Part shown: positions 33,614 to 46,540 of the stretch, in pieces
How the letters are laid out: each line of letters begins with the position of its first letter
Position numbering within the stretch: the first letter of the stretch is position 1
Assembly: GCA_023131975.1 (NCBI GenBank)
Contig: JAGLYV010000009.1
Span: 1 to 46,893 of the forward strand
Direction of reading: 5' to 3'
DNA: 46,893 nucleotides
Origin: Candidatus Krumholzibacteriia bacterium
GTDB lineage: Bacteria; Krumholzibacteriota; Krumholzibacteriia; Krumholzibacteriales; Krumholzibacteriaceae
Program-made: the position numbers and the translations under genes
Notes under the pieces: model-generated
The model's input: only the letters and a program-made list of their open reading frames with translations
Databases searched by the model: none
What the model was told of the DNA's origin: nothing

Positions 33614-34927
33614 ATGAGATTCTGGAAAGACTATTGGAAGCCATTGCTGATCATGTCGGCCCTCTTTGCCGCCTTCTTTTTCCTCCCTGTAGAGGCTATG
33701 AGGGGTTCAGCGCGTTTCGAGAACTCGTTCTGGGAGGCGCTCAGTCTGGCGAAGTGGTACGCGCGCGAACATGTGATCCTGTGCCTCGTACCTGCTTTCT
33801 TCATTGCCGGCGCTATCTCGATCTTTATCAGCCAGGCCTCGGTGATCAGGTATCTTGGTGCCGGAGCGAACAAGGTGCTTGCCTATAGTGTGGCCTCGGT
33901 GTCCGGATCGATCCTGGCGGTGTGTTCCTGCACTGTGTTGCCCCTGTTCGCGGGGATATACAGGAGGGGAGCGGGGCTTGGGCCTGCGACCGCGTTTCTC
34001 TATTCCGGTCCGGCTATCAATGTGCTTGCTATAATCCTGACGATGAGGATCCTCGGTGTTGGGTTGGGAATAGCGAGGGCCGTCGGGGCGGTACTTTTCA
34101 GTGTAGTCATAGGACTTCTCATGCATCTCTTCTTCAGGAAAGAGGAGATGGAGAAGGCCGAAGCAGGTCTGGCCGAGCCAGATATTGAGGAAGGCAGGCC
34201 CCTCTGGAAGAACGCGGTATTTTTCGGCCTTATGGTCGCCGTGCTGGTATTTGCCAACTGGGGGCATCCCGGGGGTTCCTCCGGATTCTGGTCTTTTATC
34301 TTTTCGATAAAGTGGTATCTGACTTCGGCCGGTGCCCTTCTGCTGGCCTTTGTCCTCGGTAAGTGGTTCGAATTGCGCTGGTATTATTCGGCGATCGCTG
34401 TCCTTCCACCGCTCCTGCTGGCGATATTTTTTCCCGGCTTGCCCCAGGTCGCTTTTATTGCGGGTGTGATTTCACTTTCGGTGATAATGAACATCAACGG
34501 GGGCGAGACGGGGGAGTGGTTTCAGTCCACATGGTCGTTCGCCAGACAGATACTTCCCCTGCTTTTGTGGGGAGTATTGATCGCCGGCGCGTTGCTCGGC
34601 AGGCCGGGACACGAGGCTCTCATTCCTGAAGGCTGGATAGCGCGCGCAGTGGGAGGCAATTCGATATTGTCAAATGTCTTCGCGTCTGTGGCCGGGGCGT
34701 TCATGTATTTTGCTACGTTGACCGAAGTGCCGATCCTGCAGGGATTGCTCGGCGCGGGAATGGGAAAGGGTCCGGCGCTGGCGCTTCTGCTGGCGGGGCC
34801 GGCGTTGTCGTTGCCCAACATGCTGGTGATAAGATCCGTGCTGGGCACGAAGAAAACGATTGTATTCGTGTCGCTTGTGATAGTGATGGCCGCCCTGAGC
34901 GGAATGATCTATGGAAAGTTATTCTGA
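33614..34927 (+). CDS. DUF318 / ArsP-type permease
   Basis: 437 residues with about ten transmembrane helices in two halves. The signature LAVCSCTVLPLFAGIYRRGA (Cys104 and Cys106) and the following GPATAFLYSGPAINVLAI mark the DUF318 permease family, to which the organoarsenical exporter ArsP belongs. A second-half equivalent is ATLTEVPILQGLLGAGMGKG followed by GPALALLLAGPALSLPNML. The gene starts eight bases after the repressor and ends overlapping the next frame. Transport of an organoarsenical, or of a thiol-linked soft ion, is inferred from family and from the ArsR neighbour. It should export from the cytoplasm. Confidence 0.88.
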   Translation: MRFWKDYWKPLLIMSALFAAFFFLPVEAMRGSARFENSFWEALSLAKWYAREHVILCLVPAFFIAGAISIFISQASVIRYLGAGANKVLAYSVASVSGSILAVCSCTVLPLFAGIYRRGAGLGPATAFLYSGPAINVLAIILTMRILGVGLGIARAVGAVLFSVVIGLLMHLFFRKEEMEKAEAGLAEPDIEEGRPLWKNAVFFGLMVAVLVFANWGHPGGSSGFWSFIFSIKWYLTSAGALLLAFVLGKWFELRWYYSAIAVLPPLLLAIFFPGLPQVAFIAGVISLSVIMNINGGETGEWFQSTWSFARQILPLLLWGVLIAGALLGRPGHEALIPEGWIARAVGGNSILSNVFASVAGAFMYFATLTEVPILQGLLGAGMGKGPALALLLAGPALSLPNMLVIRSVLGTKKTIVFVSLVIVMAALSGMIYGKLF

Positions 34928-34938
34928 TGGAGGAAATG

Positions 34939-35175
34939 ATGAAAAAGGTGGAGGTCCTCGGAACAGGTTGTGCCAAATGTGCCCGACTTTATGAAAATGT
35001 TCAGAAAGCCAGCCTTGAGGCTGGACTGGAGATCGATCTCCGGAAAGTGGAGGACATAAATAAAATAGTCGGCTACGGAGTGATGATGACTCCGGCCCTG
35101 GCGATCGACGACAAAGTAGTATCTTCCGGTAAAGTCCTTTCAGAGGAAGATATTGCCAAGATGCTGAAAGGTTGA
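34939..35175 (+). CDS. Small CxxC thioredoxin-fold protein (redox-active disulfide protein 2 type)
   Basis: 78 residues from the ATG at 34939, which has GGAGG five bases before it; an ATG at 34927 overlapping the permease stop would add four residues. The fold is a mini-thioredoxin: KKVEVLGTGCAKCARLYENV with Cys11-x2-Cys14, and a cis-proline loop in MMTPALAIDDKVV, ending in SEEDIAKMLKG. Such proteins regularly accompany DUF318 permeases and are thought to hand over electrons or a soft-metal or sulfur cargo in the cytoplasm. Third gene of the operon. Confidence 0.9.
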   Translation: MKKVEVLGTGCAKCARLYENVQKASLEAGLEIDLRKVEDINKIVGYGVMMTPALAIDDKVVSSGKVLSEEDIAKMLKG

Positions 35176-35191
35176 TTTTAACCGGAAAGAA

Positions 35192-35249
35192 GATTTATCT
35201 ACGGGAGAACAGAGAACGCAGATTCATCTACGGGAGAATAGAGTGGGTA
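35192..35249 (+). repeat. Tandem 29-base duplication carrying the ribosome site
   Basis: Copy 1 (35192-35220) and copy 2 (35221-35249) agree at 21 of the first 23 bases. Each contains TCTACGGGAGAA; copy 2 supplies the ribosome site and the GTG start (35243) of the next gene, while copy 1 has no start codon at the same place. Confidence 0.7.
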
Positions 35250-35773
35250 CCAAAAATATTATCACAATCGTGCTGATGGTCTTTGTGGTGGGTAGCGTGG
35301 CGTTCATGATATTCGAAGGCCTTTTTCGGGATGACGTTGTTGATAGCGAGGGGATGGGAACGGCTGAGGAGATAGGAGCGGCTGAGGAGATAGGAACGGC
35401 TGAGGAGATGGAGGCTGTTCAGAGCCATCGCGTCGTCGCGTACTATTTTTACACCACGAAGCGGTGTCCGACATGTAAAAAGATAGAGGAATACACGAAG
35501 GAATCGATCGAGGCGAATTTCCCCCGGCTTCTCGAATCGGGTAGTCTCGAGTTTCACGCGCTGAATGTAGATGAAAGGGAGAACGAGAGATTCATCGAGG
35601 AGTACCAGCTCACTACCAAGTCGGTCATCCTTGTCGATTATCGCGGTGGCGAACGTGTAGCCTGGAAGAACCTCGACAAAGTCTGGGAATATACAGGAGA
35701 CAGGGAAATATTCGTCGATTATGTAAAGGACGAGACCCTGGGCTTCCTGGCCGAACTTTCAGGAGTCGAATGA
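35243..35773 (+). CDS. Membrane-anchored thioredoxin-like protein with CPTC motif
   Basis: 176 residues beginning with GTG at 35243 (GGGAG six bases upstream). An N-terminal transmembrane anchor (about 5-27) is followed by a Glu/Ala/Gly linker made of a 6-residue repeat (GTAEEI, GAAEEI, GTAEEM), then a thioredoxin-like domain with VVAYYFYTTKRCPTCKKIEE (Cys75, Cys78), FHALNVDERENERFIEEY and a loop TKSVILVDY that lacks the usual cis-proline. It faces outside the cytoplasm. The stop overlaps the CcdA-like gene (ATGA), so it is likely the periplasmic partner reduced by that protein, as DsbE/ResA is by CcdA. Confidence 0.82.
   Translation: MGTKNIITIVLMVFVVGSVAFMIFEGLFRDDVVDSEGMGTAEEIGAAEEIGTAEEMEAVQSHRVVAYYFYTTKRCPTCKKIEEYTKESIEANFPRLLESGSLEFHALNVDERENERFIEEYQLTTKSVILVDYRGGERVAWKNLDKVWEYTGDREIFVDYVKDETLGFLAELSGVE
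35356..35409 (+). repeat. In-frame 18-base tandem repeat, three copies
   Basis: Copies at 35356-35373, 35374-35391 and 35392-35409, differing at one to two bases (core GGAACGGCTGAGGAGAT). They encode the six-residue linker repeat and can expand or contract without a frameshift. Confidence 0.8.
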
Positions 35774-36462
35774 TGGATGACATGGCAGTAAAACTCGGTC
35801 TGGCGGTATGGTTCGGTATACTGACCTCGATCAGCCCCTGTCCGCTGGCTACCAATATCGCGGCGATGTCTTATATTGGAAGGAGAGTGGACGATCCCCG
35901 GAAAGTGTTGATCTCGGGACTGCTCTACTCGATCGGAAGGGCTCTGGTCTACATGGCCATCGCGGGCCTTCTTGTGGCAAGTATCCTCTCTGCTCCGAGG
36001 ATATCGTTCTGGCTTCAGAAATATATGATAAGGATAATGGGTCCTGTTCTTATTCTGACGGGGATGTTTCTTCTCGGACTTATCGGCCGGGGAATCCAGA
36101 TAGGCGGAGTGAGCGAGGCAGCCGCAAAAAAAACTGAAAGACTGGGAGTGTGGGGGGCCGGGTTGCTCGGTATCCTGTTTGCCCTGTCGTTCTGTCCGAC
36201 CTCTGCCGCTCTCTTTTTTGGAAGCCTGCTCCCCCTTGCCGTGGATACGGGGTCGGGACTGCTGCTCCCGGCACTTTACGGTGTAGGGACCGCGCTGCCC
36301 GTGGTTTTCTTTGCGTTTGTGATCGCGTCCGGGGCGAACCGTCTCGGAAAGGCGTTCGAAAAAGTGACCCAGCTGGAACTATGGGCAAGGAGGGTGACCG
36401 GGGGACTCTTTATCGGGATCGGGATCTGGTTTTCCCTCAGGTATGTGTTCAAGTTGTTCTGA
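35770..36462 (+). CDS. CcdA/ArsG-like thiol-transfer membrane protein
   Basis: 230 residues with six predicted transmembrane helices; the ATG overlaps the preceding stop. Two cysteines stand at matching places in helices 1 and 4, Cys24 in TSISPCPLATNIAAMS and Cys142 in FALSFCPTSAALFFG, the layout of CcdA/DsbD core proteins, which move electrons from cytoplasmic thioredoxin to extracytoplasmic acceptors. Sequences of this type next to CPTC thioredoxins are also annotated as ArsG-family efflux transporters. Context with the thioredoxin-like proteins favours thiol-electron transfer, but the two readings cannot be separated here. Last gene of the arsR operon. Confidence 0.85.
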   Translation: MMDDMAVKLGLAVWFGILTSISPCPLATNIAAMSYIGRRVDDPRKVLISGLLYSIGRALVYMAIAGLLVASILSAPRISFWLQKYMIRIMGPVLILTGMFLLGLIGRGIQIGGVSEAAAKKTERLGVWGAGLLGILFALSFCPTSAALFFGSLLPLAVDTGSGLLLPALYGVGTALPVVFFAFVIASGANRLGKAFEKVTQLELWARRVTGGLFIGIGIWFSLRYVFKLF

Positions 36463-36695: not shown

Positions 36696-37772
36696 ATGAG
36701 AACCGGAAGAGCTATGCGCATGTTATTTATCCTGGTCGCCGGGGTTATCGCGCTTACAGGCTGTGATAATGAGGCCCTTTCACCGGATGAGATGGGTGGG
36801 GCCATGGGTGATTTTTCGAAGTACGGGGAAGTCGCCTTCGACACTCTCTATTTTCACAGCGGCAATGGCGCTTGTGGTGAGCAGGACACACTCATAACGC
36901 TCAGGTATAGTATCGGGGGTATGGGCTATTCCGCACTTATAGGTGGGGGAAGCGATTCGTTGGAATGTTCATGCGACGCGATCGCCCTGCTGATGCCGGG
37001 TGCCCTGCCCGTCACGACATTGTCGCCCGGGTATTCTGCCGGCTGGTTCGAGATATCTTTCGAACTGCCAGAATACTGGCGTAACGTTACCATGTATCTG
37101 TCGATCCTTGCCGATGATGGTGCGGGAATCACTCTGAACGGATACGACCTGGGTCACGTGGACCTTCTGGATGGAACAGATTCCACCAGCGTGAAGGTGA
37201 ACGATCTGGTGATTACGGGTGACAGCCTGTTCGTGGAAGGTACGAACGTGATCACCTTTAATGTAGTGAATACCGGAACGGGATTCTTCGGAGATCCGGT
37301 AGCGAGGGCAGATTCGGCCGATTGCATGTATGTCGCTTTTGACGCTACCGTGATATTTGCCTTGGAAGACCCATGTGAAGTGGAAATAGATATTAAACCT
37401 GGTAGCGAAATAAACCCGATTAATTGCAAGAGTATGAACGGTGTCATCCCCGTCGCGATCCTCACGACGGATTGTTTCGATGCGGCTATGGTCGATCATA
37501 CTTCCGTGGTCTTTGGTCCTGCCGAAGCTTATGAGGCTCACAGCAACAAGCATGGGATGATACGGCATATGGAAGATGTCGATTTCGATGGCGACATCGA
37601 CATGGTGTTCCATTTCCGGGGATACGAAACGGGAATAGTCTGCGGCGATACCCTTGTGACCCTGAAAGGGCTGACCCTCGACGGGTTCAGTTTCGAGGCT
37701 TCGGATTATATCAGGACTGTACCCTACGATATGCCGGATTCGACTTATTGCGAACCGGATTCGACTCAGTAG
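36696..37772 (+). CDS. Lipoprotein with a repeat-type extracellular domain (IDIKPGS module)
   Basis: 358 residues. The signal sequence ends at lipobox LTGC (Cys23). Residues about 45-235 are beta-rich and contain seven cysteines likely to form disulfides (NGACGEQD, SLECSCDA). Residues about 233-335 are a module found in many surface proteins of environmental bacteria and archaea: VEIDIKPGSEINPINCKS, GVIPVAILTTDCFDA, VVFGPAEA, HMEDVDFDGDIDMVFHFR, ETGIVCGDTLVTLKG. The DVDFDGDID run is a probable calcium loop. No enzyme motif is present. It is a monocistronic gene with its own promoter and a strong terminator. Function unknown; a surface binding role is likely. Confidence 0.78.
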   Translation: MRTGRAMRMLFILVAGVIALTGCDNEALSPDEMGGAMGDFSKYGEVAFDTLYFHSGNGACGEQDTLITLRYSIGGMGYSALIGGGSDSLECSCDAIALLMPGALPVTTLSPGYSAGWFEISFELPEYWRNVTMYLSILADDGAGITLNGYDLGHVDLLDGTDSTSVKVNDLVITGDSLFVEGTNVITFNVVNTGTGFFGDPVARADSADCMYVAFDATVIFALEDPCEVEIDIKPGSEINPINCKSMNGVIPVAILTTDCFDAAMVDHTSVVFGPAEAYEAHSNKHGMIRHMEDVDFDGDIDMVFHFRGYETGIVCGDTLVTLKGLTLDGFSFEASDYIRTVPYDMPDSTYCEPDSTQ

Positions 37773-38244: not shown

Positions 38245-38292
38245 ATATCTCCTCTGGAAAGAGTCTGATAACCCGATCATGTGGTGGTGCAG

Positions 38293-38766
38293 ATGATGAG
38301 AAAAAAAGAAAACAACAGAGGATTCACCCTTACTGAACTGATGATCGTCATATCGATCATGGGAATGCTGGCGATACTTATAATGCCGGGATATAACAAG
38401 TTCATGGCCAACTGGAGGCTCAATGGAGATACCCAGGAGCTGGCCACGGCACTTCGCACTGCCCGATCGACTGCGGTGATGAAGAACATAGATGTCGTAT
38501 TCGAATTTGATACTGATTCACAGACATATTCATATTTCGAAGACAAGGATCGGAATGGCAATCGCGGGACGGATGAGTATATGAGCGCGACCCATGAGAT
38601 GTCCCCCGGCGTCAAGATAGCTGGACACACGTTTTCCGGTACAATCCTGACTTTCGGAAGTAAGGGAAATGCCCGAGAAAGCGGGTCGATAACACTAAGG
38701 AATGTTTATTACAAAATAAGGGGTGTCGAAGTCTTCGGTGGAACAGGAAACATAACAGTCGATTGA
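38293..38766 (+). CDS. Type IV pilus minor pilin / pseudopilin, FimT-GspH type
   Basis: 157 residues from the ATG at 38293 (a second ATG follows at 38296; a GTG at 38281 is possible but unsupported). The class III signal is clear: a short basic leader MMRKKENNRG, cleavage before Phe, then FTLTELMIVISIMGMLAIL with the Glu at +5. The body has the GspH/FimT look: ELATALRTARSTAVMKN, VFEFDTDSQTYSYF, SPGVKIAG, GSITLRN. After prepilin-peptidase processing it would take part in starting pilus or pseudopilus assembly at the tip. First gene of a four-gene operon. Confidence 0.9.
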   Translation: MMRKKENNRGFTLTELMIVISIMGMLAILIMPGYNKFMANWRLNGDTQELATALRTARSTAVMKNIDVVFEFDTDSQTYSYFEDKDRNGNRGTDEYMSATHEMSPGVKIAGHTFSGTILTFGSKGNARESGSITLRNVYYKIRGVEVFGGTGNITVD

Positions 38767-38780
38767 AAAGGAAATATGAC

Positions 38781-39185
38781 ATGTTAAATGCAGAAAAAGA
38801 AATCCGATTTTCCAACAAGGGCGTAGGGCTCGTAGAGATTATTATCGCCATGCTGATTTTCGCGGTCGGTATCACCGCCGCGCTGAGGACTCTTCCCGAT
38901 TCCAACCGCGCGACATCGAGATCGAGGAATCTGACTATAGCTACGAACCTTGCCCAGCAGAAGATTGAGGAACTGATGGGGGCTCCGTATAGCAATGCAG
39001 ATCTCAACGCAGGCGCCCATACAGATCCTGATAATCCCATAGAGACTATTTTCAGTAGAGCGTGGAGCGTGACCGACAATGTGCCACTAACTGACATGAA
39101 GCAGGTCATAGTTACGGTGACCTACGATTCGGGGAGTAAGGATAACTCGGTTACACTTACCACATATCTGACGTCGAGACGTTAG
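38781..39185 (+). CDS. Minor pilin, PilV-type
   Basis: 134 residues from the ATG at 38781, preceded by AAAGGAAA; a TTG at 38763 would add six residues. The prepilin segment NKGVGLVEIIIAMLIFAVGITAA has Gly-Val at the cleavage point instead of the usual Gly-Phe, with Glu at +5. Then the PilV-like helix NLTIATNLAQQKIEELMGAPYS and a short beta domain with VTVTYDSGSKDNSVTLTTY. Minor pilins of this class form a tip complex with PilW and PilX types. It begins 14 bases after the FimT-type gene. Confidence 0.87.
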   Translation: MLNAEKEIRFSNKGVGLVEIIIAMLIFAVGITAALRTLPDSNRATSRSRNLTIATNLAQQKIEELMGAPYSNADLNAGAHTDPDNPIETIFSRAWSVTDNVPLTDMKQVIVTVTYDSGSKDNSVTLTTYLTSRR

Positions 39186-39205: not shown

Positions 39206-42178
39206 ATGAACAGAACACTCAGGAAAGATGCAGGGTTTACGCTTGTCGAGATGGTGATCAGCATTCTCGTACTTGGATTTGTACTGATCTCCGTTGCTGG
39301 TGTATTTGTCCTTTTCCAGAAGGGGGCAGCCCAGACCAGTGAATACGCGGAAGCTCAGCAGAATACCAGGGTGGCTCTCGACTACATCACGGATCATCTC
39401 AGACAGGCGGGCTCGCAGACCGACTATTTTCACGGGCAACGTCCTATCGCACACGCGGGGCCATACCAGATCGTGATCAATGCCGACATTGACAACGGCG
39501 AGGTGATCGACGGACAGCCTCCACTCACCGCGTATAGAAGGTCCGGGGCACCGAACACTGTTCCGACCTCGGGAACGACCCTGTACCAGCCGGCTTCGGA
39601 TTACAATTCCGACGCCGAGACGGTAGCCTTTACTCTGGATTCCACTACCGACGGTCTCATAAACAAGTCGGACAGGGGAGACGACACAGTGGAGGGCGGA
39701 CCGAACATCAACCTTTTTGTACTCAAAAAACGTATTTATGGAAACAATGCCGGGGTAAACGAGGTCAGGGAGAACGACCTGGCGATAGTCAGGGGACCTA
39801 ACCTGGCCGCGACCTGGCTTACGCCGGAGCCGCTGTTTCAGTATTTTTATGATAATGATGACGATATTATGACCGACGATGTCCTCTGGGGGGATACCGA
39901 TAACAGCGGAGAGCTGAGTACGGGCGAGATCGGCGGAATTACCGCGATGCCGGACAACCTGCTTGGCAAGATCCGCAAGGTCAGGGTCACTTCGATAAGC
40001 GAATCTAACAGGTACGACAAGAGGCACGAGACTAACGGTGGGTTTATCAATGTCACGATGACTTCGGAGATATATGTCAGAAACATGACGAGGTCGACAT
40101 CGACGATCCAGGGTCAGGTATTTCATGATACAGACAGCGATGGATCGCTGGATCCGGGTGAAACCGGTATTCCCGGCGTCGAGATCCGTATCGCCGGACA
40201 GAACCGTAACGTATTGACTGACAGTTACGGTCGCTACTATATCCCGCTGCCGGCGGGGGATTACTCGATCCAGGAAGTCGACCCGATGGGATACACATCG
40301 ACGACGGCGAATCTTGTGTCGGTGTCACTCGTATCGGGACAGTCATATGTCGTGAACTACGGAGACATTTCCTCCAACCCGTTCGGCATCATCCACGGTG
40401 TCGTCTTTGAGGATACTGACAAGAACGGTATCAAGGATTTCAGCGAAGACGGGATCCAGGGTGTGTCGATATCGCTCGATAATGGTGCGGCCACCCGTAG
40501 CAATGATGTCGGCTATTATTCTTTCGTCGCCCAGCAGGGAAACTATATCGTTGTGGAAACGGACCCGACAGGGCTCTCTTCGACTACACCCAACTCGGTC
40601 TCGGCGGCTATCGTCAGTCAGGACGATACCGTGACGATCAACTTTGGAGATTTTGCGGGGGATGTCACGGGAACGCTTGAAGGATATGTTTACAAGGATA
40701 TCAATGAGGACGGTGTCAGGAACTCGATGGAGGACGGGATCCCGAACGTGTCCATCGTAGTATCCAACGGTGACTCGATGATGACCAACGCTGACGGTTA
40801 TTACAGGTTCAACCTGCATCCGGATACTTATAAAATAATCGAGCGCGATCCTATGGGATATACCTCCACGACGGTGAATATCTACACAGATATTCTAATC
40901 GTGGCTGATACGACTGTAGTCCGCGACTTCGGTGATGTCCTTGAGGAAAAACTCGACTTCGTAGAGATACATATCTCGAATACCGACAGGGTGCTTTCCG
41001 TGTCGACCGGGAATCTCAATGAGGACGACAAGTACGACACCGATATCGTTCTCGGTACGGCGCTAGCCGGCGGAATAGGGAATATGCTTATCTTCCATAA
41101 CAACTGGGAGACCTCACAGACCCCGGTACACGAGTTGTTCAACTCTGAGCCTGTCTACAGACGGGATGCAGGTTACAATATCAACACGATGAGTCGTTAC
41201 GATTTCTCCGGTGACGGGACCATAGACATATTGAGTGGCCTCGAGATAGCTACGGAGAGAAACATACAGGTATGGTACACGGGGCTCGGAGGTATACTCA
41301 GTACTACGCCGGACAAGTCATACTTCACGACAGGGATGAACGAAGTGATGGACAGTGAATTGGCCGATTTTAATAACGACGGAAATATCGATATTCTTGT
41401 CGGCCTGAGATCGCCGATCGGGACCAGTGGAGCATTCGAGATCATGGAAGGGTCCGGTGCAGGTGATTTCACAGCTGGAGATTATGTTACACGTGCAGGG
41501 CCTGAAGATATATTTGTGCTTGGCGCGGTATGGGCTGTCGGCGCCGGAGATATCGATGGCGATGGAGACCAGGATGTGGTAGTAGGCACGCATATTACGG
41601 CTTATACCGGATTCATCGATGTCTATATAAACGAAGGTCTTGCGAGTGCTAAATTCACCTGGCATTCCAGGTACAACTCCTGGGGTGCAGTGAATGATAT
41701 CATAATGGCAGATATGCAGGAGGATGACGCTGGAGATCCCGACATAGTCGCCTCGATGAGTATGGGTCCGAGTTTTGGATTCATCATGCTGTGGAACAAC
41801 GAAGGCGGTATATTCGGAGAGGTGGATACGACCGGGTTTGCCTTCGGCCCGAAGGAAACACCCAACTTCCCTACGGATTGGGTCGATGCCAAGGGCGAAC
41901 CTCTCAGCATGGGTCTTCTCTACGTGAACAACGATGTGTTCCCGGATATCGCATATGGGACGAGGAGCAGTGCCGTCTATACAGGTGATATATACATTCT
42001 GCCCTCGTATGGAACGCTTCCGGAAAACGGATTCAAGATCAATACGACAGATCTGGGAGAGATCATCTCGATCGATGTCGCGGATTTCAATAAGGACAGT
42101 CGTCCCGATATTGTAGTCGGGACAAGATCATCTGCTACACAGGGTAAGCTTGTCGCCTATTTCGGCAGGGAACTTTAG
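39206..42178 (+). CDS. PilW-type minor pilin fused to three SdrD-B-like repeats and a seven-repeat FG-GAP propeller
   Basis: 990 residues, ATG with GGAAGGAAAAGAG upstream. Residues 1-35 are a class III prepilin stem (DAGFTLVEMVISILVLGFVL). Residues 36-297 are a PilW-like globular part. Then three SdrD-B/Cna-B-like repeats begin at residues 303, 398 and 493 (VFHDTDSDGSLDPGETGIPG, VFEDTDKNGIKDFSEDGIQG, VYKDINEDGVRNSMEDGIPN), an exact 95-residue period. Seven FG-GAP/VCBS-like calcium repeats follow near residues 602, 666, 721, 782, 836, 906 and 960 (for example DFNNDGNIDILVG, DIDGDGDQDVVVG), enough for a closed seven-bladed propeller. I infer a pilus-tip adhesin, with the propeller carried by the pilin itself instead of a separate PilY1. 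Confidence 0.85.
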   Translation: MNRTLRKDAGFTLVEMVISILVLGFVLISVAGVFVLFQKGAAQTSEYAEAQQNTRVALDYITDHLRQAGSQTDYFHGQRPIAHAGPYQIVINADIDNGEVIDGQPPLTAYRRSGAPNTVPTSGTTLYQPASDYNSDAETVAFTLDSTTDGLINKSDRGDDTVEGGPNINLFVLKKRIYGNNAGVNEVRENDLAIVRGPNLAATWLTPEPLFQYFYDNDDDIMTDDVLWGDTDNSGELSTGEIGGITAMPDNLLGKIRKVRVTSISESNRYDKRHETNGGFINVTMTSEIYVRNMTRSTSTIQGQVFHDTDSDGSLDPGETGIPGVEIRIAGQNRNVLTDSYGRYYIPLPAGDYSIQEVDPMGYTSTTANLVSVSLVSGQSYVVNYGDISSNPFGIIHGVVFEDTDKNGIKDFSEDGIQGVSISLDNGAATRSNDVGYYSFVAQQGNYIVVETDPTGLSSTTPNSVSAAIVSQDDTVTINFGDFAGDVTGTLEGYVYKDINEDGVRNSMEDGIPNVSIVVSNGDSMMTNADGYYRFNLHPDTYKIIERDPMGYTSTTVNIYTDILIVADTTVVRDFGDVLEEKLDFVEIHISNTDRVLSVSTGNLNEDDKYDTDIVLGTALAGGIGNMLIFHNNWETSQTPVHELFNSEPVYRRDAGYNINTMSRYDFSGDGTIDILSGLEIATERNIQVWYTGLGGILSTTPDKSYFTTGMNEVMDSELADFNNDGNIDILVGLRSPIGTSGAFEIMEGSGAGDFTAGDYVTRAGPEDIFVLGAVWAVGAGDIDGDGDQDVVVGTHITAYTGFIDVYINEGLASAKFTWHSRYNSWGAVNDIIMADMQEDDAGDPDIVASMSMGPSFGFIMLWNNEGGIFGEVDTTGFAFGPKETPNFPTDWVDAKGEPLSMGLLYVNNDVFPDIAYGTRSSAVYTGDIYILPSYGTLPENGFKINTTDLGEIISIDVADFNKDSRPDIVVGTRSSATQGKLVAYFGREL

Positions 42179-42205
42179 GTGGCACCAGACAAGGGGAAGA
42201 ATGAT

Positions 42206-43468
42206 ATGAAAAACTCGATTTTCAAAGAGATCCGGAACGAGAAGGGTAACCTTCTGGTGGTCACCCTTATCATCCTTTTCGCCGTGTCGGTGATCGGCGC
42301 GACGATGGTGATGGTCTCCTCGATGGACCTCAAGATCGCCGGTAACCAGCGGGTCACGACACAGTCGCTGTTTGTGGCGGAGGCTGGCCTTAATGAGGCG
42401 ATCCACCGGCTGTCCCTTACCGATCCGACAGTCGTGACGATCGGCGGGTGGACAGGTAACGCGTCAATATCTGACAGCAAGCCGTACGATCCGAACTGGA
42501 AGACAAAGATATATCTTACCAAGCCTGACGCAACCCCGGCCAGCGCCGGGTCGATCGTCAACACCGGCACTATCCAGGATCCTACCCAGCCGTATATGGA
42601 GTACAGCGAGCCTAATGGTACCGATGGGGTGCTGTCGATCGAACACAAGTGGAAGGACCGGGACGGGGACGGCACGCGTGACGCGAACGAGATCATAAGG
42701 TACGATCCGATGATGATACCGCCGGAGAACTTCACCTCGGGATTCCCCGTGGAGATAGTCACCGTCACAGGCAATTCGGCCAGTGGCAGGCGTGTGATCC
42801 AGGCCGAGGTCGTCAAACAGACTGTGATAGTCAGGACTCTCGGAGCGCTCTACGTGGACAAGGCAGTAAAACTTACCGGTAATTGTGCATTTTGCGGATA
42901 CAATCACGCGATTACCACGCCTGTCGGTACTCAGCCCAATGCCTGCGTACCTCACCATCAGGCAAGTGGAAACCTGCCAGGTGTGACAAGCACGGGCGAT
43001 GATGTAAAGACACAGGGAAGCGCTGACATACTCGGTAATCCGATACCGATCGATGATGCCGCGACGAATCCGTTCTACAGCCTGGACGAAGCTCTGGGAC
43101 TTCCGGTGGCTGACGTCAAAAAGATGCTGGCCAACGCGGACAATACATCTATCGTCGATCCGCTCAACGGGATCACATATATAAATGGTGACGCAAAGAT
43201 AGTGAGCAATCTCGTAGGAGAAGGACTACTTTACGTTACAGGCGATCTTAATGCCGCGGGAAGTTTTATCTTCAAAGGTTTGATATATGTCGAAGGCGAT
43301 GTGCAGTTTACCGGGTCGCCCTGGATCCTGGGAAGTATGATCGTACGCGGGACATCGGATTTCAACTTCTCCTCCGGTAACGCCGCGGTGCTGTACAGCA
43401 GTGAAGCGTTATCGCAGGCTCTGGCTGGCGCAATGCCCTGCATCGTGCTTTCGTGGAGGGAGATGTAG
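42206..43468 (+). CDS. PilX-type minor pilin with polymer-forming-like repeats
   Basis: 420 residues from the ATG at 42206 (AAGGGGAAG upstream); a GTG at 42179 directly after the previous stop lacks a ribosome site. The N-terminus fits the PilX type: NEKGNLLVVTLIILFAVSVIG, then SSMDLKIAGNQRVTTQSLFVAEAGLNEA. Here the cleavage site is followed by Asn and the +5 Glu is missing, as usual for PilX. A cysteine/histidine cluster (NCAFCGYNH, ACVPHH) follows at about residues 230-262. The last 90 residues are a right-handed-helix-like repeat (LLYVTGDLNAAG, FIFKGLIYVEGDVQFTG, WILGSMIVRGTSDFNFS). Last gene of the pilin operon. Confidence 0.85.
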   Translation: MKNSIFKEIRNEKGNLLVVTLIILFAVSVIGATMVMVSSMDLKIAGNQRVTTQSLFVAEAGLNEAIHRLSLTDPTVVTIGGWTGNASISDSKPYDPNWKTKIYLTKPDATPASAGSIVNTGTIQDPTQPYMEYSEPNGTDGVLSIEHKWKDRDGDGTRDANEIIRYDPMMIPPENFTSGFPVEIVTVTGNSASGRRVIQAEVVKQTVIVRTLGALYVDKAVKLTGNCAFCGYNHAITTPVGTQPNACVPHHQASGNLPGVTSTGDDVKTQGSADILGNPIPIDDAATNPFYSLDEALGLPVADVKKMLANADNTSIVDPLNGITYINGDAKIVSNLVGEGLLYVTGDLNAAGSFIFKGLIYVEGDVQFTGSPWILGSMIVRGTSDFNFSSGNAAVLYSSEALSQALAGAMPCIVLSWREM

Positions 43469-43545: not shown

Positions 43546-46317
43546 TCACGCATTTTCAGGGCTCGTTGCACGGGCCCTTTTGAATATCTTTATGATCTCG
43601 AATACCAGAAGATACACTCCGGCCGCGCCCAGCACATAAAGCCAGTCAATCGCTCCAATAGGCGCGAAATTGAGAAACCTGCTGACGAACGGCAGATAAA
43701 TCGCGCCAAGGACCAGCAGTATAGAACCCAATATTGATACGTGAAGGATGCGGTTGGAGAAGAATCCCCTGTGGAAGATCGAATCCCTGTCGTTTCTTCT
43801 CGAAAAGATATTGACGAACTGACAGAAGGCGATCGTGACATAAGTGACAGTCGTCGCCGTGGAGTAGAGCAGGGGGTCTGCTGGCTCGATGCTGAATACC
43901 GTTCCGGAACGGTGCATGAAGAGGGCGTAATTGGCAAACGACAGCCCTCCTATGATCAGCCCCAGGAATATTACTTCGATCGATGTGAACCTGTTCAGGA
44001 TATGCTGGCCGAGATTGCGTGGTGGCCTCATCATTACGTCTTCCGGCGGCGGATCGTATGTCAGGAAAGTCAGGGGCATGATCTCGGCGAGAAGATCTAT
44101 GGCGAGGATCTGTATGGCCAGGATAGGTATTGCCCATCCTCGCAGCGAAACGGCGGTAAGCCCGAGAAGTACGACAAAGAGTTCCGCTCCGTTTGTCGTC
44201 ATCGAGGCTAGAACCGTTTTTCTCAGATTTTCGTAGATAGTCCTTCCTTCCCTTACCGCGTCTACGAGGGTGGGGAAGCTGTCGTCCAGAAGGATCAGTT
44301 CGGAAGCCTCTTTGGCGACATCGGTACCGATTTTCCCCATAGCGACCCCGATATCGGCCTTCCGAAGAGCGGGAGCGTCATTTACGCCATCTCCGGTGAC
44401 TGCTACGACTTCGCCGTTTTTCTCCAGAAGGGTAACGATCCGTAACTTGTCTTCCGGGTCGACGCGCGAGAAGATGATCGATTCTTCTTTTCGCATCACT
44501 TCAGAGAGTTCTTCGTCGCTTATCTCCTTTAATTCTTTTCCGGTGAATACAGGGGATGGAGCCAAGGAGTTCGACAGGCCGATCTCGTTTCCGATGGCCT
44601 GGGCCGTGACCGCGTGGTCACCGGTCATGATGAAGGTCCTTATTCCGGCGGTATGGCAGTGGGCAATTGCCTCTTTGACACCTTCGCGCGGAGGATCGAT
44701 CATGCCGGCCAGTCCGAGAAAGATGACATCTTTCTCAACTTCCTCTATCACGTAATCTTTGCCGTCCGACTCGAGGGGGCGGTATGCTATCGCCAGTACA
44801 CGAAGGGCCTGTTTCGAGAATTCATCGTTGATCCTTCGTATCTCATCTTTGTCCGCGTCGGTCATCGGCTCGGCTTTGCCGTTACGGTAGATAAACCGAC
44901 TTATTTCCAGCACGTTGTCCGGAGCGCCTTTCATCGCCAGCTGCCTGTGATTTCCGAATTCCCTGACCGAGCTCATCAGCTTGCGTTCCGAATCGAAGGG
45001 GAATTCCAGAAGTTCCGGATTTTCCTGGTCTTCCGTGGGAGAACGGGTGCCGAGCTTTGTGGACATGGCGACGAGCGCGGCCTCGGTGGGGTCCCCCACA
45101 GGATACCACTCGGCGTGTTCGTCGTCGGGCTTATGTATCTCGGCGTTGGATGCCATCGTTGCGGCGTCCATCATGATCTCTATCTCGTCGATACCGGCCT
45201 GATCGACAACGTTGCCATCGGCATCGAGGAGCTGTCCTTCAGGCTCGTAACCGATTCCCGTCATCTTGTAGAGACGTCCGTCAAACCAGATGTCGGTAAC
45301 GGCCATCTCGTTCCTTGTCAGAGTGCCGGTCTTGTCAGTGCTGATAACGCTTGTGGAGCCGAGTGTCTCGACGGAGGGAAGATTCTTGACCACAGCCTTT
45401 TTTTCGGCCAGACGCTTGCTGGTGGCTGACATTGCGACCGTGACCTGCGCAGGGAGGGCCTGGGGGACAAGGGCAACTGCTATGCCGAGGGCGTAGACCA
45501 TGCTCGTGAAGAAATCGAATCCCTGCCAGAGGGCGACTCCGAACAACATACTACCGATGATGACGACTGTAACGGTGAGCCATTTCGCGAGAGATCCCAA
45601 TTCCTTTTCGAGAGGTGAGGGTACTTCTTCGGTTTCCTGGGTCATCCCGGCGATCTTTCCCATTTCCGTCCGCATCCCCGTTGTGGCAACCAATCCGGTC
45701 GCGCTTCCCGACGTTACGGTAGTCCCCATATATGCCATATTGTCCCTGTCGCCCAGCCCACAGTCTTCTTTTATGGCATTCGTCGTCTTTCCCTGCGGCA
45801 TTGATTCGCCTGTCAGTGCGAAATCCTCGGTCCTCAGGTCGAACGATTCGACTATCCTCAGATCTGCAGGTATCCGGTCGCCTGCCTCGAGTTTGACAAT
45901 ATCGCCGGGAACGAGTCTGACCTGCCCGATCTCGGCCAGGTCACCTCCCCGAAGTACGCGGGCAGGAGAGGTGATCATGTTTTTCAGGCTTTCCAGTATT
46001 CTGCTCACTTTGAATTCCTGAACGAACCCGATGATGGCGTTTATGGCAACTATGATGAGCATGACGATGGCGTCACGAGTACTTCCTATAATGAATGATA
46101 TCGAGGCCGCTACGATCAGTACGATGACAAGTAGATCCTTGAACTGCGAGAGAAAGATCAGCCACCTCGAAACGCCCATGTCGGCGGTGAGCTCGTTAGA
46201 GCCGAACTTTTCCAGCCTCCGGTCCGCATCATCTACGGAAAGGCCATTCTGCGAACTTTCCAGCGCATTCAGAGCTTCCTGTACTGTCATTCTGAAATAC
46301 TTTTTTTCGTCATCCAT
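43546..46317 (-). CDS. P2-type cation-transporting ATPase
   Basis: 923 residues from the ATG at 46317. It has the full P-type plan: N-terminal cation ATPase domain, M1-M2 helices, actuator domain with TGES (about 169), phosphorylation site DKTGT (Asp about 328), nucleotide-binding domain with KGAPD, hinge TGDGVNDAP, and six C-terminal helices. Overall it is closest to SERCA/PMR1-like calcium pumps. The M4 ion-binding segment reads VPQALPAQ where calcium and sodium pumps have PEGLP, so a Gln replaces the key Glu; M6 has IDLLAEIMP in place of NLVTDGLPA. Ion specificity is therefore uncertain. It is transcribed alone and converges on the pilin operon. Confidence 0.92.
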   Translation of the reverse strand: MDDEKKYFRMTVQEALNALESSQNGLSVDDADRRLEKFGSNELTADMGVSRWLIFLSQFKDLLVIVLIVAASISFIIGSTRDAIVMLIIVAINAIIGFVQEFKVSRILESLKNMITSPARVLRGGDLAEIGQVRLVPGDIVKLEAGDRIPADLRIVESFDLRTEDFALTGESMPQGKTTNAIKEDCGLGDRDNMAYMGTTVTSGSATGLVATTGMRTEMGKIAGMTQETEEVPSPLEKELGSLAKWLTVTVVIIGSMLFGVALWQGFDFFTSMVYALGIAVALVPQALPAQVTVAMSATSKRLAEKKAVVKNLPSVETLGSTSVISTDKTGTLTRNEMAVTDIWFDGRLYKMTGIGYEPEGQLLDADGNVVDQAGIDEIEIMMDAATMASNAEIHKPDDEHAEWYPVGDPTEAALVAMSTKLGTRSPTEDQENPELLEFPFDSERKLMSSVREFGNHRQLAMKGAPDNVLEISRFIYRNGKAEPMTDADKDEIRRINDEFSKQALRVLAIAYRPLESDGKDYVIEEVEKDVIFLGLAGMIDPPREGVKEAIAHCHTAGIRTFIMTGDHAVTAQAIGNEIGLSNSLAPSPVFTGKELKEISDEELSEVMRKEESIIFSRVDPEDKLRIVTLLEKNGEVVAVTGDGVNDAPALRKADIGVAMGKIGTDVAKEASELILLDDSFPTLVDAVREGRTIYENLRKTVLASMTTNGAELFVVLLGLTAVSLRGWAIPILAIQILAIDLLAEIMPLTFLTYDPPPEDVMMRPPRNLGQHILNRFTSIEVIFLGLIIGGLSFANYALFMHRSGTVFSIEPADPLLYSTATTVTYVTIAFCQFVNIFSRRNDRDSIFHRGFFSNRILHVSILGSILLVLGAIYLPFVSRFLNFAPIGAIDWLYVLGAAGVYLLVFEIIKIFKRARATSPENA
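43559..43581 (+). terminator. Possible terminator of the minor-pilin operon
   Basis: GGGCTCG-TTGCA-CGGGCCC (one G-U pair) followed by TTTT, inside the 3' end of the convergent ATPase gene. The U run is short. Confidence 0.4.
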
Positions 46318-46540
46318 CAAGGTCTCTTTCGCGTCATAGTGATATTCTCTTTTTCATCTTGCCTGGTGGGCTGTCATGCCAGCTTGTCAGGACAGGCTCC
46401 ACAGGCGGCAAATCTATTCTGGGCCAGCAACCGGCAAATCGACTCCGACCAGTGGGCTGACTCTAGCATATGTTCGGTTTGATGAAAACCCCGGAAGATT
46501 ACAACGAGTCATCGGGGAACGGCAAAAAGCCATAGTGCTT

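Follow-up and report, generated by a model that had tools for sequence, protein, structure and literature searches.

The window analysed here, a stretch of 46,893 nucleotides from a Candidatus Krumholzibacteriia bacterium, carries an operon in the order fimT-pilV-pilW-pilX, followed by a convergent gene for a P-type ATPase (Table 1). The third gene is a single uninterrupted frame of 990 aa in which pilin, stalk and propeller-type repeats are joined in one chain, as the initial annotation of this DNA had claimed. We refer to this protein as fused PilW.

Table 1. Features of the minor-pilin operon and of the fused PilW, with positions in the window.
Feature	Position	Strand	Basis
fimT/GspH-like minor prepilin	38281..38766	+	
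pilV/GspI-like minor prepilin	38763..39185	+	
Modular minor pilin, PilW/GspJ position, SdrD-B stalk and FG-GAP propeller, 990 aa	39206..42178	+	
Class III leader MNRTLRKDAG, cleavage before F11, E at +5	39206..39235	+	Sequence, N_methyl Pfam match
Hydrophobic N-terminal helix and PilW-like pilin domain, aa 11-298	39236..40099	+	Profile matches
SdrD-B repeat 1, aa 301-389, Ca-loop-like DTDSDGSLDPGE at aa 308	40106..40372	+	
SdrD-B repeat 2, aa 396-484	40391..40657	+	
SdrD-B repeat 3, aa 491-579	40676..40942	+	
FG-GAP propeller-type domain, seven blade repeats, aa 583-990	40952..42175	+	
Blade 1 loop, aa 603-613, two-residue insertion	41012..41044	+	
Blade 2 canonical Ca loop DFSGDGTID	41201..41227	+	
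Blade 3 canonical Ca loop DFNNDGNID	41366..41392	+	
Blade 4 canonical Ca loop DIDGDGDQD	41549..41575	+	
Blade 5 loop, aa 836-846, two-residue insertion	41711..41743	+	
Blade 6 degenerate loop NNDVFPD	41927..41947	+	
Blade 7 canonical Ca loop DFNKDSRPD	42083..42109	+	
Long pilX-type minor pilin, 429 aa from GTG; likelier start ATG ~42207	42179..43468	+	PilX_N 2.6e-9

The order of the operon is kept in relatives. PilX measures 420-458 aa in operons with a fused PilW, whereas operons encoding PilY1 hold a PilX of 157-169 aa and an ordinary PilW of ~200 aa. A profile of the long PilX retrieved nothing convincing from the PDB. In one relative (G036, L034:11524-13800), a 758-aa protein with VIT and VWA domains is encoded directly after the long PilX. 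In the window (43546-46320, minus strand) and in G007 (L033:3380-6139, minus strand), cation P-type ATPases of one kind adjoin the fused-PilW operon, on opposite sides of it in the two genomes. The window also holds an ORF for a lipoprotein-like exported product (36696-37772), which has the motif EIDIKPGSEINPINCKSMNGVIPVAILTT and no Pfam match. At 33614-36462, a membrane permease and a DsbD/CcdA-like membrane protein are encoded together with a small thioredoxin-like protein and a thiol protein, in a cluster that resembles a redox or metalloid module.

Prepilin stem, pilin domain and stalk of the fused PilW

The N-terminus of the 990-aa ORF matches the Pfam model N_methyl (1.1e-5) and has the features of a type IV prepilin, namely a class III leader, a glycine at -1, a hydrophobic helix and a glutamate at +5. 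Residues G10, F11 and E15 are invariant among homologs, which places cleavage between G10 and F11 and E15 at +5. The class III prepilin stem proposed by the initial annotation is thus borne out. A profile of the pilin domain matches pilin N-termini in the PDB. The gene occupies the third position of the fimT-pilV-pilW-pilX operon, which is the position of PilW/GspJ. None of the PilW/GspJ family models was passed by the protein, and generic or sub-threshold pilin models alone match; therefore, we assigned it to PilW/GspJ by its operon position. The earlier description of this part as PilW-like holds for its place in the operon, but not at the level of family models. An ordinary PilW from a PilY1 operon (G033, contig C3) aligns weakly to the fused PilW (E 1.8e-7).

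The region following the pilin domain matches SdrD_B over three stretches (4.5e-32, Pfam), and its autocorrelation shows a sharp peak at 95 residues, in agreement with the three repeats of 95-residue period described before. Each of the repeats begins with a calcium-loop-like segment.

The FG-GAP repeats and conservation among relatives

The C-terminal region matches FG-GAP_3 (2.3e-13) and FG-GAP (8.9e-8) in Pfam, with repeats reaching the very C-terminus. We aligned 19 propeller domains, the window copy among them. All 19 contain seven segments, spaced 54-68 residues apart, with a D...D...D-hhh-G signature. Across these homologs, blades 2, 3, 4 and 7 have canonical DxDxDGxxD-type loops, blades 1 and 5 share a two-residue insertion in the loop, and blade 6 lacks the first ligand. 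In a leave-one-blade-out analysis, a model built from six blades was scored on the seventh, with the 1% score of shuffled controls as the cut-off. All seven blades were recognised by models of the other six, both in the window copy and in 16-19 of the 19 homologs. The domain thus carries the seven FG-GAP repeats of a propeller of this type. The initial annotation had counted exactly seven D-x-[DN]-x-D-G repeats; the number of blades stands, but the strict expression finds three matches in the propeller, and the loops vary. Simple autocorrelation of the propeller gave no clear period.

A profile of the domain has its best match in the PDB in integrin alpha propellers (E 7.6e-8), with part of the domain aligned. 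AlphaFold2 yielded a weak model of the propeller from three sequences (pLDDT 42.6, pTM 0.47) and a poor one of the whole fused protein, likewise from three sequences (pLDDT 27.1). The top Foldseek matches of the weak propeller model (pLDDT 42.6) are mostly propellers, and we do not rely on them. Because the AlphaFold models are poor, we infer from the repeats that the C-terminal domain would close as a seven-bladed β-propeller.

The initial annotation had also asked whether the same architecture occurs in related genomes. Among 80 genomes of the phylum (named Latescibacterota in the analysis), five families (f1, f2, f3, f6 and f7) contain between them 20 copies that are full-length or nearly so; further fused copies, including one in f8, lie at contig edges or are split or truncated. 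The 20 copies share 34-91% identity with the window copy, complete copies are 978-1003 aa long, and SdrD_B and FG-GAP are both present in all 16 members that were scanned. An exact-pattern search of GTDB contigs, whose sensitivity is limited beyond the phylum, returned two close relatives of the locus. Comparing the window copy with its congener, we obtained dN/dS values of 0.10 for the pilin, 0.07 for the stalk and 0.07 for the propeller (0.08 overall). As these values are low in all three parts, selection maintains the fused protein over its entire length. Propeller and pilin domain are equally conserved.

Two loci show altered copies. In the one-contig genome G042 (L049:8212-9138), the fused gene is reduced to its first 210 residues, with 79% identity to the congener, and stalk and propeller are absent from the surrounding 20 kb. 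In G019 (contig C63, L019), the gene lies in two frames, split near residue 380-424, by either a frameshift error or a break in the copy.

The pilus machine of the host genome and the distribution of PilY1

The host genome is a draft of 2.79 Mb in 171 contigs, 96% complete; the phylum has been linked to detritus of algae (PMC4454575). One contig (C159) encodes pilQ-P-O-N-M, the prepilin peptidase PilD and a 158-aa major pilin PilA, and another (C65) encodes pilT, pilC and pilB; some of these names rest on gene order and sequence instead of a model. Together they make up one complete T4aP gene set. Genome-wide, N_methyl prepilins comprise the major pilin and three proteins from the window operon, which appears to be the sole minor-pilin set of the pilus.

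The four-gene order equals gspHIJK, and GspH is the best-scoring model for the first gene, which could point to T2SS pseudopilins GspH-I-J-K with a large GspJ handling secreted substrates. We consider this highly improbable, as the single secretin of the genome lies inside the pilQPONM cluster, one assembly ATPase stands beside PilT/PilC, and the fourth gene passes the PilX_N cut-off. A genome-wide search of the draft found neither a GspD secretin nor a T2SS ATPase set. With PilQ as the single secretin and ATPases of the PilB/PilT type only (three in the genome), the pseudopilin identity was rejected for the host genome.

The operon of the window contains no pilY1. The Pfam model of PilY1 (PF05567, T4P_PilY1) has no match in the host genome, and this negative is informative because the same model matches 33 relatives. 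We further built a phylum-specific profile from ten PilY1 proteins, which scores >1000 bits in most PilY1-bearing genomes and finds nothing in families f1-f4, the host genome included. The separate pilY1 gene that the initial annotation had named as evidence against its reading was therefore detected by neither model.

Across the phylum, PilY1 occurs in 34 of the 80 genomes and a large modular PilW, counting a second type without a propeller, in 36; eight of the fused copies in these 36 are contig-edge fragments, split or truncated. Both occur together in two genomes (G032 and G033). The initial annotation had asked whether genomes with this architecture lack pilY1; G032 and G033 keep both. 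In these two, the operon for fused PilW and long PilX and a separate operon for PilY1, short PilW and short PilX are found side by side (L038 and L062 in G032, L047 and L063 in G033). On a ribosomal-protein tree, about five changes of state in modular PilW and four in PilY1 suffice for the distribution. An independent-pairs test of the two was not significant once corrected for descent, with few transitions. The Fisher value of 5e-10 over the 80 genomes ignores descent and is not claimed as evidence. Since descent alone can account for the correlation, we claim no significance for the pattern; the complementarity of PilY1 and modular PilW in the phylum is suggestive, not proven.

The second type of long modular PilW (1055-1065 aa) was seen at L041:7687-10884 (G007), L042:7105-10293 (G009) and L045:7684-10851 (G030). 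It combines a related pilin domain with fn3/Ig-like repeats and a C-terminal MAM-like domain, and is encoded in its own fimT-pilV-pilW-pilX operon with a PilX of 449-460 aa. In several genomes it is the sole protein of this kind.

The initial annotation had pictured a stalk and propeller covalently joined to PilW, where other bacteria have the separate propeller protein PilY1. The fusion is upheld, but the propeller is of the FG-GAP/integrin type, and its homology to the PilY1 propeller is not detectable (hhalign probability 1.5%); hence, this is not PilY1 fused to PilW. Fused PilW is probably a functional analogue and a non-homologous replacement of PilY1.

Proposed role and comparison with known systems

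Four minor pilins, H-I-J-K, prime and tip the T4aP, and PilY1 caps them in diderms (PMC10191384). By analogy with this set, the pilin module of fused PilW would assemble with FimT, PilV and PilX into the complex of minor pilins by which the pilus is primed and tipped, while a position in the shaft is unlikely because of the bulk of the protein. The three SdrD-B repeats might act as a stiff spacer, probably stiffened by calcium, that would hold the seven-repeat FG-GAP propeller beyond the pilus tip, where it may bind a surface or polymer, cap the tip, or both. We thus favour, with a probability of roughly two in three, a modular T4aP minor pilin that serves as a self-contained, probably calcium-dependent tip adhesin or cap and stands in for PilY1. 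Tip position, calcium binding, adhesion and the replacement of PilY1 are predicted features of this reading.

Propeller and pilin domain are equally conserved, unlike what is seen in a fast-evolving host-binding adhesin, and this makes a purely structural part the main rival. The propeller would then cap the tip complex or help to prime it, instead of being an adhesin, and the stalk would serve merely for passage through the secretin. Both domains are under the same purifying selection, and the length of fused PilW is nearly fixed; moreover, PilY1 itself primes assembly (PMC7541494). However, the SdrD-B stalk would place the propeller far from the pilin complex. It also counts against a structural cap that FG-GAP propellers with calcium loops usually bind ligands. 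We regard this alternative as unlikely.

Still less probable, in our view, is that the propeller binds DNA for competence, or another soluble ligand, and not a surface. The precedent is Thermus ComZ, a tip minor pilin whose large module is proposed as a DNA receptor (PMC6561018). Against such a role, no competence link is seen in the operon, and acidic loops of the calcium type abound in the domain.

Turning back to a tip adhesin or cap that stands in for PilY1, the case is evenly balanced that PilY1 was lost in the main Latescibacterota branch and that its priming and tip adhesion were taken over by the non-homologous module on PilW, with the long PilX changed too. PilY1 is treated as a standard component of the T4aP tip in diderm bacteria. 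If our reading is correct, a diderm T4aP that is otherwise canonical works without it. The lineage makes it testable which functions of PilY1 (priming, adhesion, surface sensing) any tip-mounted propeller can supply, and whether the minor-pilin complex can do without PilY1 altogether.

As far as tested, the following are new: an SdrD-B stalk and FG-GAP propeller combined on PilW, the conservation of this protein across much of the phylum, and a full T4aP machine without detectable PilY1. In the literature searched, which did not extend to the 2021 data set of PMC8179133, no paper was found that brings FG-GAP and pilin together. Modular pilins as a class are already known, and fused PilW adds a variant: 264 architectures were reported in 2021, and minor pilins bearing large modules are well established as a class (PMC8179133). 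In Streptococcus sanguinis, part of the minor-pilin set gives way to modular pilins that bear grafted modules for adhesion (PMC8179133, PMC10191384). Like fused PilW, its PilB and PilC carry a C-terminal module, which in these two is adhesive and in PilB metal-binding (PMC8179133). Unlike fused PilW, these modules are of the vWA or lectin type, without SdrD-B stalk or propeller, and in this monoderm PilABC replace the PilHIJK set (PMC10191384), whereas fused PilW occurs within the canonical diderm set FimT-PilV-PilW-PilX.

For Thermus ComZ and CofB of ETEC, which are minor pilins with sizeable additional domains, a location at the tip has likewise been proposed, but their modules are a β-solenoid, or a β-repeat plus a β-sandwich, with neither SdrD-B nor FG-GAP. 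PilY1/PilC (PF05567) resembles fused PilW, as predicted here, in its large propeller and calcium sites, is likewise encoded with minor pilins, and occurs in sister lineages of the phylum; it differs as a separate non-pilin protein with a PF05567-type propeller and, in this phylum, a vWA-like N-terminal region. Integrin alpha shares the seven FG-GAP repeats and the DxDxDGxxD calcium loops, but is a eukaryotic receptor without a pilin, aligning to part of the domain.
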